The notes beneath the pieces were generated by a model. The model was given only the letters and a program-made list of their open reading frames with translations. It was not told the origin of the DNA and ran no database searches. A stretch of DNA of 64,000 nucleotides from Methylocystis heyeri. Its GTDB lineage: Bacteria > Pseudomonadota > Alphaproteobacteria > Rhizobiales > Beijerinckiaceae. Each line of letters begins with the position of its first letter. Position 1 is the first letter of the stretch. This document shows, one piece after another, positions 35,575 through 42,015 of this stretch. The stretch covers positions 1,054,001 to 1,118,000 of the forward strand of contig NZ_CP046052.1 of assembly GCF_004802635.2 (NCBI RefSeq), read 5' to 3'. The translations under genes were made by a program, and so were the position numbers.

Positions 35575-36843
35575 ATGAAAAGGATTTCGATCCTGGCTTC
35601 CTGTCTCGGCTTTTGCTGCGTCGCAACGGACTCTGCGGTAGCGGAGAAGCAGGTGATCGCGAAGGCGCAATTTCCAGCTCCGCAGAGCTCGGAAACGGAC
35701 AAGGAGTGGAACTGCTACTGGCCCGCCTATTATTTGCGCTATCACGCGTACGACGTGCCCCGATCCGTCGTTAGCCCGCTGCTGACGCAGGACCCTGAGG
35801 CGAAAAAGCTTCCACTCGTGCAACCTTCGCCGGTCTTTGTTCCCGTTCCACGCGCTGCAGAACCTGCTTGCCATGACTATTCCGATCTCGACGCCGAGGG
35901 CAGGCCAATCTGGTTCGACGGCATTGCAGCAGGGCAGCTCAGCAATCTCGTCCAAATGTTGCTTGCGCAGGAGAAGTTCGCCGATCTCGACCGCCTGATC
36001 GACGACTGGACGTCCAGGCAGGAGCGCATTGCGGACGGCAGATGGAAACTCACCTTCTTGTTGGACGGCTTCAAGAACCAGAGTTACCAACCCAACGGCT
36101 GGGAGCGGATGGGCGCAATTATCCAGCGGTGGAAGGCCGCCAACCCGACCTCTGCGGGAGCGGCGATCGCCGAGGCGAACTACTATTACTCTCTGGCATG
36201 GAAGGCCCGAGGCGGTGGCTATGCTTCCTCGGTGGAGTCGGAAGGTTGGCGGCTGTTTGAAGAAAGGCTTCGGAAAGTAGAGCGGATATTGTCGGATAGC
36301 AAATCCTATGCGTCCAGGAATCCACTCTGGGGTAATCTCTATCTCGATGTCGTCGCGCTTCTGAATTGGCCTAGAGAACGCCAATACGAACTGTATCGTG
36401 CGGTTACCAAGGAACACAAATATTACTATTGGGCCTATGACGCCTACATAACTTTTCTCGCTCCAAAGTGGGGCGGCGACTGGAGTCTGGTCGACGCAGT
36501 GATAAAGGACGCGGAAGAAAAAACCCGCGACGTCGACGGCGCTTCGACTTACACCCGGATGTACTGGCTGGTTTCGGGCTCCGAAGAAATCGGCTTCAAT
36601 ATTTTCAAGGATACGCGCGCCGACTGGCCGCACATGAGACAGGGCTTCAAGGACATGTTGAGGCTCTATCCGCACAGCGCCTGGAACGCCAATGCCTATG
36701 CGGTCTTCGCCTGTTTGGCGAGAGACGGCGACAGTTTTTGGGAAGCGCGAGCCCGGATGAAGGATAAAATCATGGAGCAGGCTTGGCCCTCCAATCTATC
36801 CATCGACGTATGCGAGGCAAGATTTCCCGGCCACGCGCTGTAG
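35575..36843 (+). CDS. Exported DUF4034-like protein
   Basis: A 422-residue protein with a signal peptide (ISILASCLGFCCVATDSAVA). The body resembles DUF4034 proteins: a helical-repeat-like scaffold with LLAQEKFADLDRLIDDW, DGRWKLTFLLDGF, GAAIAEANYYYSLAWKARGGGY and HSAWNANAYAVFACLARD. Function unknown. The ATG follows GGAAGGAA. The TAG stop is the first triplet of a short repeat copy (TAGAGCATTTTCG). Base composition is somewhat below the window average. Confidence 0.65.
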   Translation: MKRISILASCLGFCCVATDSAVAEKQVIAKAQFPAPQSSETDKEWNCYWPAYYLRYHAYDVPRSVVSPLLTQDPEAKKLPLVQPSPVFVPVPRAAEPACHDYSDLDAEGRPIWFDGIAAGQLSNLVQMLLAQEKFADLDRLIDDWTSRQERIADGRWKLTFLLDGFKNQSYQPNGWERMGAIIQRWKAANPTSAGAAIAEANYYYSLAWKARGGGYASSVESEGWRLFEERLRKVERILSDSKSYASRNPLWGNLYLDVVALLNWPRERQYELYRAVTKEHKYYYWAYDAYITFLAPKWGGDWSLVDAVIKDAEEKTRDVDGASTYTRMYWLVSGSEEIGFNIFKDTRADWPHMRQGFKDMLRLYPHSAWNANAYAVFACLARDGDSFWEARARMKDKIMEQAWPSNLSIDVCEARFPGHAL

Positions 36844-36873
36844 AGCATTTTCGAGCGAACCCGGTTCGTGGGC
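36841..36873. repeat. Short degenerate copy of repeat family B
   Basis: TAGAGCATTTTCGAGCGAAC followed by CCGGTTCGTG, resembling the first part of the 41948 element (GTGTTTTCGAGCGAA...CCGGTTCGCG) with a central deletion. It contains CGAACCCGGTTCG, itself nearly palindromic, and starts on the stop codon of the DUF4034 gene. Confidence 0.55.
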
Positions 36874-36902: not shown

Positions 36903-36939
36903 TTGACATGAAGGGGTAAAAAGAGAACAATAAAGGAAC
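36903..36939 (+). promoter_or_regulatory. SOS-regulated promoter of dnaE2
   Basis: A perfect -35 TTGACA (36903-36908), a 17-base spacer and a -10 AACAAT (36926-36931) overlapped by an exact SOS box GAAC AATAAAG GAAC (36925-36939). LexA bound here would block the -10, so dnaE2 should be DNA-damage inducible from its own promoter. Confidence 0.85.
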
Positions 36940-36969: not shown

Positions 36970-39900
36970 TTGATCATCCCCCTGCCCCGCTACGCCGAGC
37001 TTGCGACGACGACCAATTTCTCCTTCCTGCGCGGCGCCTCGCACCCGGAGGAGATGGTCGCCCGCGCGCTGGAGCTCGGTCATTGCGGCATCGGGATCGC
37101 TGATCGCAATTCGGTGGCGGGCGTGGTGCGGGCGTTCTCTTTTCTGCGGGCGCATGATGGCGTCGCGCCGGAGAGTTTCCAGCTCGCCGTCGGCGCAAGG
37201 CTGGTCTTTTCCGACAAGACCCCGGACCTTCTCTGCTACCCGCGGAATCGCGCCGCCTATGGGCGCCTCTGCCTGATGCTGACGCGCGGCAATATGCGCG
37301 CCAAGAAAGGCGAATGCGCGCTCACGCTCGGGGATCTGCTCGAATTCAGCGATGGGCTGCAACTGATCGCGCTCGGCGACGCCGCGCCGCCCGCCGAGAT
37401 CTATTCCGCCTTCAAGGATCGGCTGTGGCTCGGCGCCGGCGCCCTTTACGACGAAAGAATGCGGGAGCGGCTCCGCCGCCGCGCCGCGCAGGCGCGCAAG
37501 CTCGGCCTGCCGCTCATCGCGGTGAACGAGGCGTATTATCACGAGCCCGGGAGGCGGCCGCTCGCCGATGCCCTGGCCTGCATTCGCGAAGGCGTGACGC
37601 TCGAGAACGCCGGCTTCAGGCTCGCCGCCAACGCCGAGCGCCATCTCAAGAGCGCGGAGGAGATGAGCCGTCTCTTCGCCGAGGCGCCGGGAGCGGTGGA
37701 CGAAACCGCGCGTTTTCTGGAGCGCGTCGAATTCCGCCTCTCCGACCTCGCCTATGATTATCCCAGCGAATTGCGCGAAGGCTTCGCGAGCGAACAGGCG
37801 GCGTTGGAGGCTTTCGCCTTCGAGGGCGCAAAAAAGCGCTATCCACAAGGCGTTCCGGGCCATGTGCAGGAGCTGCTCCGACGCGAATTGAGCCTCATCG
37901 GCCAATTGAACTACGCCGCCTATTTTCTCACCGTGCACGATATCGTGCGCTTCGCCCGTTCGCGCGGGATTCTGGCGCAGGGACGCGGCTCGGCGGCCAA
38001 CAGCGCGGTGTGCTTTTGCCTCGGCGTCACCGAAGTCGATCCGACCAAGCACGATCTCCTGTTCGAACGCTTCGTTTCGGCCGAGCGCAACGAGCCGCCC
38101 GACATCGACGTCGATTTCGAGCATGAGCGGCGTGAGGAAGTGATCCAATATATCTACCAGCGCTTCGGCCGCGCCCATGCGGGCCTCGCCGCCGCCGTCG
38201 TGACCTACCGCTCGCGGTCGGCCCTGCGCGAGGTCGGCAAGGCGTTCGGTTTTTCGAGCGATCTTCTGGGGCGGCTTTCCGCCCTGTCGTCGGGCGGAAC
38301 GACGCCCGAACAGCGCCGCGCCGACATGATCCGCTCGGGGCTGGACCCGAGCGAGCCGCGCTTCGCCATGGCGCTGGCGCTGGCGCAGGAGCTCAAGGGA
38401 TTTCCCCGCCATCTCACCCAGCACAGCGGAGGCTTCGTCATCACCAGGGCGCGGCTCGACGAGGTGGTTCCGGTCGCGCCCGCCGCGATGGAGGGCCGCA
38501 CCACCATCATGTGGGACAAGGACGATCTCGACGCTCTCGGCATTCTCAAGATCGACGTGCTGGCGCTCGGGATGCTCACCTGCCTGCGCAAGGGCCTCGA
38601 TCTGCTGGCGGCGCATTACGGAATTCGTCGCCGCCTTTCGACGCTGCCCGCCGAGGACGAGCGCGTCTACGCCATGGTCAGCCGGGCCGATACGGTGGGC
38701 GTGTTCCAGATCGAGAGCCGCGCCCAGATGTCGATGCTGCCGCGCCTCAAGCCGCAATGCTTCTACGACCTCGTGATCGAGGTGGCCATCGTGCGTCCCG
38801 GACCCATTCAGGGCGATATGGTTCATCCCTATCTGCGCCGCCGCATGAACAAGGAAAAGGTCGAATATCCCTCGCCCGAACTGGAGCAGGTGCTCGGCAA
38901 GACTCTCGGCGTTCCCTTGTTCCAGGAGCAGGCGATGAAGATCGCCATCGTCGCGGCCGGTTTTTCTCCCGCGGAAGCCGATCAGCTCCGCCGGGCCATG
39001 GCCACCTTCAAACGCGCGGGGCTGGTGAGCGCTTTTCGGGACAAGATGATATCCGGCATGATGGCGCGCGGCTATCCGCAGGATTTCGCCGAGCGCTGCT
39101 TCCGGCAGATCGAAGGCTTCGGCACTTACGGCTTCCCCGAAAGCCACGCGGCTTCCTTCGCGCTGCTGGTCTATGCCTCGGCATGGCTCAAATGCCGCTA
39201 TCCCGATGTTTTCGCCTGCGCGCTCCTCAATTCCCAACCGATGGGGTTTTACGCGCCGGCGCAGATCCTGCGAGACGCTCGGGAACATGGGGTCGAAGCG
39301 CGGGAGGTCGACGTAAACGCTTCCCAGTGGGATTGCGCGCTCGAGCCTTCCCCTGGAGTGTTTTCGAGAGAAGCGGACGCCGGTTCGCGTGAAGAAAGCA
39401 CGATCGAACAAGGACGCCTGCATCCGCGCCACGAGTCGATGGCTTCCGACATTGCGGGAAATTGCGCCCTGCGTCTCGGTTTTCGCCTCGTCAAAGGCGT
39501 CGCGGAGGCGGAGATGCGCCTGCTCGTGGAGCGGCGCGGCGCCGGCTATGATTCGGTGCGCGATTTATGGCTGCGCACGGGCCTGCCGCCCTCGACGCTT
39601 GAAAAACTCGCGGAGGCCGACGCCTTCTCCAGTCTCGGCCTCACCCGGCGCGAGGCGCTATGGGCGATCGCCGGCCTCAACCGCGCCGGCGACAAGGACG
39701 ACCTGCCCTTGCTGCGCATGCTGGCCTTTTCTCCGACGGAGCCCGACGCAGATCTGCCGCCCATGCCGCCCGGCGAAGAGGTGATGGAGGATTACCGCTC
39801 GCTCTCGCTCTCCTTGAAGGCGCATCCGGTGGCGTTTTTGCGCCGGTCGCTGGCCGGGCGGGGCGTCGCCCCCTGCGCGGATCTGTCGCGCCCTTACGAG

Positions 39901-40209
39901 CCGCCGCCTCTGCGCGCCGCCATTGCCGGGCTGGTGCTGATGCGCCAACGTCCGGCCACGGCCAAGGGGGTGATCTTCATGACGATCGAGGATGAAACCG
40001 GCGCCGCCAATATCATCGTCTGGCCGAAATTATTCGAGAGATTCCGGCCGGAAGTGCTCGGTTCGCGTCTTGTCGTCGTCACCGGCAATGTGCAGAACGA
40101 ATCCGGCGTCGTGCATGTCGTCGCCACCCGAATCGAAGATATTTCGGCCGATCTGCGCAAAATCGAAAAGGCGCGGGCTGCGACCCCGAAGGCGCGAAAT
40201 TTTCACTAA
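36970..40209 (+). CDS. dnaE2: Error-prone DNA polymerase DnaE2 (ImuC)
   Basis: A 1,079-residue C-family polymerase alpha subunit used in damage tolerance. Order: PHP domain (YAELATTTNFSFLRGASHPEEMV), polymerase palm with catalytic acidic motif PPDIDVDFEHERREEV (~375-390), fingers and tail (LPLFQEQAM-like VPLFQEQAMKIAI), tandem HhH region (CALRLGFRLVKGV) and OB fold (IAGLVLMRQRPATAKGVIFM). The start is TTG with GGAG about 8 bases upstream. Residues ~795-830, between WDCALEP and CALRLGF, include sequence from repeat family B. imuA and imuB, its usual partners, are not adjacent. Confidence 0.95.
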   Translation: MIIPLPRYAELATTTNFSFLRGASHPEEMVARALELGHCGIGIADRNSVAGVVRAFSFLRAHDGVAPESFQLAVGARLVFSDKTPDLLCYPRNRAAYGRLCLMLTRGNMRAKKGECALTLGDLLEFSDGLQLIALGDAAPPAEIYSAFKDRLWLGAGALYDERMRERLRRRAAQARKLGLPLIAVNEAYYHEPGRRPLADALACIREGVTLENAGFRLAANAERHLKSAEEMSRLFAEAPGAVDETARFLERVEFRLSDLAYDYPSELREGFASEQAALEAFAFEGAKKRYPQGVPGHVQELLRRELSLIGQLNYAAYFLTVHDIVRFARSRGILAQGRGSAANSAVCFCLGVTEVDPTKHDLLFERFVSAERNEPPDIDVDFEHERREEVIQYIYQRFGRAHAGLAAAVVTYRSRSALREVGKAFGFSSDLLGRLSALSSGGTTPEQRRADMIRSGLDPSEPRFAMALALAQELKGFPRHLTQHSGGFVITRARLDEVVPVAPAAMEGRTTIMWDKDDLDALGILKIDVLALGMLTCLRKGLDLLAAHYGIRRRLSTLPAEDERVYAMVSRADTVGVFQIESRAQMSMLPRLKPQCFYDLVIEVAIVRPGPIQGDMVHPYLRRRMNKEKVEYPSPELEQVLGKTLGVPLFQEQAMKIAIVAAGFSPAEADQLRRAMATFKRAGLVSAFRDKMISGMMARGYPQDFAERCFRQIEGFGTYGFPESHAASFALLVYASAWLKCRYPDVFACALLNSQPMGFYAPAQILRDAREHGVEAREVDVNASQWDCALEPSPGVFSREADAGSREESTIEQGRLHPRHESMASDIAGNCALRLGFRLVKGVAEAEMRLLVERRGAGYDSVRDLWLRTGLPPSTLEKLAEADAFSSLGLTRREALWAIAGLNRAGDKDDLPLLRMLAFSPTEPDADLPPMPPGEEVMEDYRSLSLSLKAHPVAFLRRSLAGRGVAPCADLSRPYEPPPLRAAIAGLVLMRQRPATAKGVIFMTIEDETGAANIIVWPKLFERFRPEVLGSRLVVVTGNVQNESGVVHVVATRIEDISADLRKIEKARAATPKARNFH
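39353..39420. repeat. Repeat family B element embedded in dnaE2 coding sequence
   Basis: 68 bases align without gaps to the intergenic element at 41948-42015, with 55 identities by my count. The palindromic core (GTGTTTTCGAG ... CCGGTTCGCGTGAAGAAA) is retained. The TAG at the end of the intergenic copy is CTG-type here, so the frame stays open. Confidence 0.85.
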
Positions 40210-41091: not shown

Positions 41092-41931
41092 TTATTTCGT
41101 CGGGAACAGTAACGAAAGTTGGAAGCGAATTTGCCACCATGGCCCGTTGTCCGGGCGAACGACGTTATAGAATGTCTGAAGGGTCATATTGACCGCCTGA
41201 TCGTTGACCTTAAAGACCCGCCCCAAGCCGCCGCCGAGCGGAACCGTCCATTGATTGCGGGTTCGCGCCACCCAATCCGCCGTGATGATCGGACTCGACG
41301 TCAAATACCAGCCATCGGGAAAGTTGTAGCTGACGAAGGTCTGCGCCTGGAATTGATTGACGTTGCGCCGGCCGGGACCGGCGAACGACCACAGGTTGTT
41401 CGCTAGAAGGCCGACGACCCACGGACCGGAGAGGAACACGCCGACGCCGGTGACCCCGGATGCCCATTTTTGCGAACCAAGTTGCGCGCTGCCGGCGGTA
41501 GGAAGAAGGAAGATCGGTCCAAGACCCGCGACGATGCCCCCCGAGAGAAAGGGAATGGGCTTTGCGGGCGAGAGATAAAATTGCGGGTTGATGTCCCCCA
41601 AGCCGTATTCCGGGCCGATATCGGGGGCCAGACGAACCTGGGAAATCAGTGGAAAGATTGGCCGGCTGATGAGATTCCAGTCTTCGCTGAGGTGAAGCGG
41701 GATTACCGGCTGGATGTTGAGGATATTTCCAGTCTGATGGTAGGGGCCCTGGTGGATATTGTTGTTGTCCTGGAATGGAAGACTTATGAGGTCAGAGACC
41801 GGGTTCTGGACTTTTTTTGCGAGTTCGGTCGCGCTTTCGTCCGCGTCTTCGGCCCGGGCCCCGCTGAACGCGAGGACAAAGGCTGTTAAGGTGAGCAACA
41901 TCAGCCTATGATTTGGCTTGCAAGCCTTCAT
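41092..41931 (-). CDS. Outer-membrane channel-like protein (Phenol_MetA_deg/neuromedin U-like)
   Basis: A 279-residue exported protein. A signal peptide (LMLLTLTAFVLAFSGARA) is followed by LISLPFQDNNNIHQGPYHQTGNILNIQPVIPL, then alternating strands with Gly/aromatic residues to a C-terminal QIRFQLSLLFPTK. This pattern, PLGGGLGRVFKV and NMTLQTFYNV, fits the beta-barrel proteins annotated as transporter or neuromedin U-like in proteobacteria. Substrate unknown. Start at 41931 with GAGGAA upstream. The open frame continues through a repeat and antisense to the next gene and is not coding there. Confidence 0.72.
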   Translation of the reverse strand: MKACKPNHRLMLLTLTAFVLAFSGARAEDADESATELAKKVQNPVSDLISLPFQDNNNIHQGPYHQTGNILNIQPVIPLHLSEDWNLISRPIFPLISQVRLAPDIGPEYGLGDINPQFYLSPAKPIPFLSGGIVAGLGPIFLLPTAGSAQLGSQKWASGVTGVGVFLSGPWVVGLLANNLWSFAGPGRRNVNQFQAQTFVSYNFPDGWYLTSSPIITADWVARTRNQWTVPLGGGLGRVFKVNDQAVNMTLQTFYNVVRPDNGPWWQIRFQLSLLFPTK

Positions 41932-41947: not shown

Positions 41948-42015
41948 CTAAAGTGTTTTCGAGCGAAGTGGATACCGGTTCGCGTGAAGAAAACACGATA
42001 AAACAAAGACTCTAG
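41948..42015. repeat. Repeat family B, intergenic copy
   Basis: A 68-bp element ending in CTCTAG with arms GTGTTTTC/GAAAACAC enclosing a GAGCGAAGTGGATACCGGTTC core. The homologue inside dnaE2 is at 39353-39420. It lies 16 bases upstream of the outer-membrane protein start, where it may influence expression. The rest of the 41932-42276 gap shows nothing recognisable. Confidence 0.85.

Follow-up and report, generated by a model that had tools for sequence, protein, structure and literature searches.

How does a dispersed palindromic repeat come to be part of an intact DNA polymerase, and why at one particular place in the protein? This question is raised by dnaE2 of Methylocystis heyeri, which encodes an error-prone DNA polymerase of 1079 residues from a TTG start at positions 36970 to 40209 (forward strand) of the 64,000-nucleotide stretch that we analyzed (contig NZ_CP046052.1, positions 1,054,001 to 1,118,000; here called the window). 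Within its reading frame the gene holds a copy of a repeat that we call element A. We propose, with a probability of roughly 70%, that this copy occupies a permissive site, the turn of a beta-hairpin, at which mobile palindromic repeats of several families pile up as in-frame protein inserts.

Element A within dnaE2

The initial annotation of the window had noticed an ungapped match between positions 39353 to 39420 in dnaE2 and an intergenic sequence at positions 41948 to 42015, and we obtained the same count of identical bases (55 of 68), with no similarity in the flanks. The intergenic copy (forward strand) lies upstream of a leftward gene with a likely start near 41931. When the whole genome was searched (4.73 Mb in three contigs), 40 of the 63 candidate copies of element A were scored, and every one of these, including the dnaE2 copy, was significant; copy counts come from such small searches, in which 40 candidates were scored for each genome. 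An 18-base core, CCGGTTCGCGTGAAGAAA, occurs 50 times genome-wide at up to two mismatches, while its backward-spelled control does not occur at all; the copy number is far above chance. When 30 genomic copies were aligned with the dnaE2 copy, a common core of about 54 bases, GTGTTTTCGAGCGAAGTGGATACCGGTTCGCGTGAAGAAAACACGATnAAACAA, was seen, which folds into an 8-bp outer stem enclosing an inner stem. In dnaE2, this core spans positions 39358 to 39411 and encodes residues 797 to 814, VFSREADAGSREESTIEQ; the arms of the outer stem lie at 39358 to 39365 (GTGTTTTC) and at 39394 to 39401 (GAAAGCAC, with one G-U replacing A-U), all on the forward strand.

One contig of the M. heyeri genome, the plasmid C2, is similar to plasmids of Methylosinus and Methylocystis, as would suit a type II methanotroph. 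Element A itself is also present, at 88 to 97% identity, in plasmids of Bradyrhizobium, Xanthobacter, and Bosea, so it is not peculiar to the M. heyeri genome. This spread speaks against the reverse direction of travel, in which the other copies would stem from a fragment of dnaE2, and against mere coincidence, as do the approximately 50 copies, which cluster near a shared consensus while the dnaE2 copy has moved away from it, and the relatives whose dnaE2 sites are empty. Copy number, consensus, and empty sites led us to reject a gene fragment copied out of dnaE2, and we regard this explanation, in either form, as almost certainly wrong.

A search of Rfam with element A returned no family, with a single chance match far under its cut-off. 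By inspection, no GTAG or CGTC tetranucleotide is present at the stem end in the 30-copy consensus around CTAGAGTGTTTTC...AAACAA. The genome (G000; G and L numbers are our handles for genomes and loci) has no match to the Y1 transposase (RAYT, PF01797), and RAYT was therefore rejected as the mover of element A. No target-site duplication is visible between the M. heyeri flanks and those of the empty-site relative L032, which have diverged.

The initial annotation had expected many copies elsewhere and none in the dnaE2 genes of close relatives, and this is what we observed. The closest relative, G014, whose DnaE2 is 87% identical, reads WDCSLEPSPGSRRLHQRHESM where the M. heyeri protein reads WDCALEPSPGVFSREADAGSREESTIEQGRLHPRHESM, and the dnaE2 site is empty in this relative and two others (loci L032, L034, and L046). 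Because L034 and L046 share the short length of G014, a gain of net 51 nucleotides (17 residues) on the M. heyeri lineage is the parsimonious event. The distance from GTYGFPESH to RLG is accordingly 116 residues in M. heyeri versus 99 in its nearest relatives. In a compact DnaE2 lineage the same distance is 83 residues, making the M. heyeri protein 33 residues longer there, since a conserved stretch, LHPRHxxM, which is native to many Rhizobiales DnaE2s and missing from the compact lineage, adds to the 17-residue gain. The figure of about 35 extra residues given initially thus combined the gain with this native stretch; the insert itself is 17 to 18 residues long.

The in-frame reading of element A within dnaE2 is VFSSEVDTGSREENTIKQ; of the three forward frames of the core, this is the only one that has no stop. 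A terminal TAG of the element had been thought to have changed so as to keep the frame open. In the 30-copy alignment, however, the shared core ends ahead of the TAG position, and the GRLH codons found there in M. heyeri correspond to RRLH in L032. We therefore rejected an altered TAG as part of the insert; judged from these alignments, it probably never belonged to the dnaE2 insertion.

The gene that carries the insert is intact. Besides its Pfam matches, DnaE2 passes the NCBIfam model for error-prone DNA polymerase (NF004225) with 1353.9 bits against a cut-off of 939. The ratio of nonsynonymous to synonymous substitution rates (dN/dS) against G014 is 0.12 overall, 0.12 before the insert, and 0.15 after it, and against two further relatives it is 0.18 to 0.24. 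Thus, dnaE2 with its insert remains open and under purifying selection. SOS genes of Alphaproteobacteria are expected to have a LexA-type box ahead of them, and a box of the alphaproteobacterial type, GAAC-N7-GAAC (GAACAATAAAGGAAC; positions 36925 to 36939, forward strand), lies 30 bp ahead of the dnaE2 start. The window contains five such sites versus 1.7 expected, so this one is notable by its position. Could dnaE2 be a decaying pseudogene that tolerates any insertion? DnaE2 is generally non-essential (PMC12926913), which would allow this, but the open frame, the low dN/dS against the nearest relative on both sides of the insert, and the retained LexA-type box contradict it at the sequence level and make it very improbable.

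Between the upstream gene and dnaE2, just upstream of the LexA-type box, we saw a possible decayed relative of element A (positions 36841 to 36868, forward strand); the match is weak, with a local alignment score of 34 against a best score of 30 in three shuffled windows. Within the genus, DnaE2 falls into two lineages (L045 to L060 forming the second) with a mutual identity of about 55 to 60%, and G002 encodes both, at G002:C1:2048532 and, on a different contig, at G002:C6:27682 for the second copy.

A hairpin turn with recurrent inserts

In an AlphaFold2 model built from 48 sequences (mean predicted local distance difference test score [pLDDT], 85), residues 800 to 812 form the longest internal stretch with a pLDDT below 50, flanked by a strand at 790 to 793 and then by helix/strand at 819 to 827 and 832 to 835 (model numbers plus 5). 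The insert is modeled in the turn of a beta-hairpin ahead of the HhH region. In the model of L042, another DnaE2, an 81-residue stretch (792 to 872), all with a pLDDT below 50, lies between the same two strands. The equivalent place in the replicative paralogue DnaE1 is a short hairpin turn, FDVAPGPDGKLAIRYALSAIKG. An exposed loop had been considered at residues of about 795 to 830. The models place a loop between strands at 800 to 812, with low confidence, and this loop is probably exposed and disordered.

Among the own-clade DnaE2s of the genus, 10 of 14 have repeat inserts at this turn, and element A is one of the ten. Two others (L040 and L041) contain inverted CGTC-type palindromes, read as GVDGRDKPGHD, with CGTC at the stem end, an element that has 31 to 36 matches per genome in the three genomes tested. 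Seven more (L035, L037, L042, and L043, and L036, L038, and L039) carry GC-rich paired modules in differing arrangements, with 17 to 52 matches per genome in the four genomes tested. L033, with 14 extra residues, was put in no insert class. In the second lineage, L045 has a 114-bp element at the turn that is found at about 40 places in its genome, G027, while its sister sequences keep a compact turn.

Inserts at the turn are also found beyond the genus. In the same family, Beijerinckiaceae, L080, L084, L085, and L086 have inserts of which parts recur in their own genomes, L080 being the weakest case, and parts of the turn inserts of Reyranella (L125), of a genome labeled Roseomonas genomospecies 6 (L128), and of an alphaproteobacterial metagenome-assembled genome (L097) likewise recur in their own genomes. 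On a tree of 123 DnaE2s from which the linker was left out, the 18 insert-bearing tips need at least 10 changes, or 12 with family labels. Distant orthologues sharing the M. heyeri residues, the outcome initially named as telling against an inserted repeat, did not turn up; different repeats stand at the same place.

We suggest that element A, with its 54-bp core and about 50 copies, is a small dispersed repeat, palindromic and non-coding, and that repeats of this kind enter everywhere, with only stop-free, in-frame copies at permissive places surviving within genes. Element A would have entered dnaE2 in the sole stop-free forward frame, adding a net 17 residues at the hairpin turn before the HhH region. 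With DnaE2 dispensable outside DNA damage and the turn probably exposed and disordered, selection would spare in-frame inserts at the turn and purge insertions almost everywhere else, which would produce a pile-up of several repeat families at one site. Two parts of this account are inferred: that the tolerated inserts are neutral, and that selection, not a mobilizing enzyme choosing its target, acts as the filter.

The many insertions at one place could instead reflect mobilizing machinery that favors a DNA feature of the turn codons, which are GC-rich and weakly self-complementary, with protein tolerance playing no part. Several inserts are paired or compound (L042 and L043), as if repeats attract repeats, which fits such a preference. 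However, unrelated families with differing ends use the same site, the site is common to several orders at the protein level while the DNA has diverged, and the flanks, compared by eye only, have no common target word. We therefore consider target choice unlikely.

The DnaE1 paralogue served as a control for the permissive-turn explanation. The DnaE1 proteins of 20 genomes of the genus, which are 72 to 88% identical to M. heyeri DnaE1 and thus comparable in divergence to the own-clade DnaE2s, have no internal insertions of at least 8 residues. Some points weigh against a permissive turn as the explanation. DnaE1 is the only control paralogue, and dispensable proteins in general may resemble DnaE2 in this respect. 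Low AlphaFold confidence is no proof of disorder in the modeled loop. Finally, DnaE2 takes repeats at further sites, near residues 107, 550, 857, 919, and 973, with one or two sequences each, so that the turn is the main and not the sole site.

Near its equivalent of residue 107, L034 (from G001) instead has a palindromic insert of 54 residues (PSPAIAGEGAADV..PSPAIAGEGWGEG). In L109, the DnaE2 of a metagenome-assembled genome labeled Rhizobium sp. Q54, the C-terminal part contains a short tandem repeat, LPAMTSLPAMT.., near the equivalent of M. heyeri residue ~928.

Repeats in other genes and the question of function

Element A is also in frame in gluQ (GluQRS, NF004315; L026), in an amidase gene (NF006169; L012), and in a gene for a YdiJ/GlpC-like iron-sulfur protein (L029), and the residues it encodes are missing from orthologues in G001, G011, or G014, which have empty sites. 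A further copy lies ahead of miaA (L006), where it follows a possible start, MSEPSPNRPARP, and precedes the conserved P-loop; from its position, it may be inside the MiaA N terminus or in a leader. In the GluQRS of G014 (L196/L199), an additional insertion of about 30 residues is present elsewhere in the protein, and the amidase match in G011 (L194, G011:C6:150177-150812) contains an in-frame TAG.

Away from dnaE2 in the genome, we found an open reading frame (ORF) of ImuB size (G000:C1:3505934-3506308) with a weak IMS-family match. Its reading frame includes an insert of about 44 residues that is missing from G014 (repeat L208, G000:C1:3505141-3505204) and holds a palindrome other than element A that is present at about 40 places in the genome. 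This repeat and the L045 element are similar to element A in layout, in which the CGTC-type and GC-rich families are dissimilar, and by this likeness both may be distant cousins of element A.

The insert in the ImuB-like ORF bears on an adaptive explanation, in which the loop would change how DnaE2 contacts ImuB or the beta clamp and be selected for tuning mutagenesis. In AlphaFold models from the literature, the HhH region, ahead of which the loop lies, touches the ImuB thumb (PMC12926913), and another paper speculates that repetitive extragenic palindromic (REP) insertions modify repair enzymes (PMC3733652). Against this, the inserts have no sequence, length, or orientation in common, the closest relatives lack them, and they are modeled without structure; we consider selection for such a loop to be improbable, slightly more so than target choice. 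Still more doubtful is the far-reaching idea that the turn is a general docking site which turns unrelated repeats into protein and, together with inserts in ImuB, remodels the mutasome and feeds back on the mutation rate.

The changes at one homologous position, at least 10 in number, amount to a natural replicate experiment on whether protein-internal repeats are neutral passengers or functional, with the relatives that have empty sites and the intact DnaE1 as controls. The turn also offers an insertion-tolerant position in DnaE2 at which tags could be placed, and it cautions against taking such loops, which are repeat DNA of recent origin, for conserved protein sequence.

Comparison with known systems

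The initial annotation had likened the dnaE2 insert to Rickettsia palindromic elements (RPEs), and the likeness holds in behavior, here in frame in an SOS polymerase gene. Like the palindromic elements of Rickettsia and Wolbachia, which are dispersed palindromes in frame within ORFs at solvent-exposed places, element A is multicopy, palindromic, and in frame in intact genes whose orthologues have empty sites. RPE-4/RPE-6 is present in the Rickettsia gene for DNA polymerase III alpha (DnaE), and insertion hotspots have been considered possible for RPEs (PMC3767692). RPEs are 100 to 150 bp long, in contrast to the 54-bp core of element A, which is in a non-Rickettsia genome; the comparison is one of behavior and not of sequence, and we do not call element A an RPE. 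A further difference from RPEs is that the DnaE2 turn, a single homologous position, is occupied by several repeat families and is empty in close relatives.

A repeat inside dnaE2 is already known. REPs of the GTAG and CGTC superfamilies were reported in 2013 inside dnaE2 and other repair genes, with intragenic sites that are stated to differ except in recB, which has one site (PMC3733652). As described there, the CGTC superfamily is resembled by the inserts of L040 and L041 with CGTC at the stem end, while element A, which has neither tag, is unlike both superfamilies; the passages of that paper that we consulted describe no common DnaE2 hairpin site. Enterobacterial RU/ERIC-type sequences are likewise small mobile repeats that add peptide sequence, although they are 127 to 168 bp long (RU-3, 103 bp) and occur in other bacteria (PMC2759123, PMC2229807). 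Among open-license papers, we found no report of one recurrent DnaE2 hairpin site filled by several repeat families, and the relevant ones were PMC3733652 and the papers on Rickettsia. As far as our searches reach, the recurrent hairpin site, its occupation by several families, the contrast with DnaE1, and the presence of element A in four genes are new.
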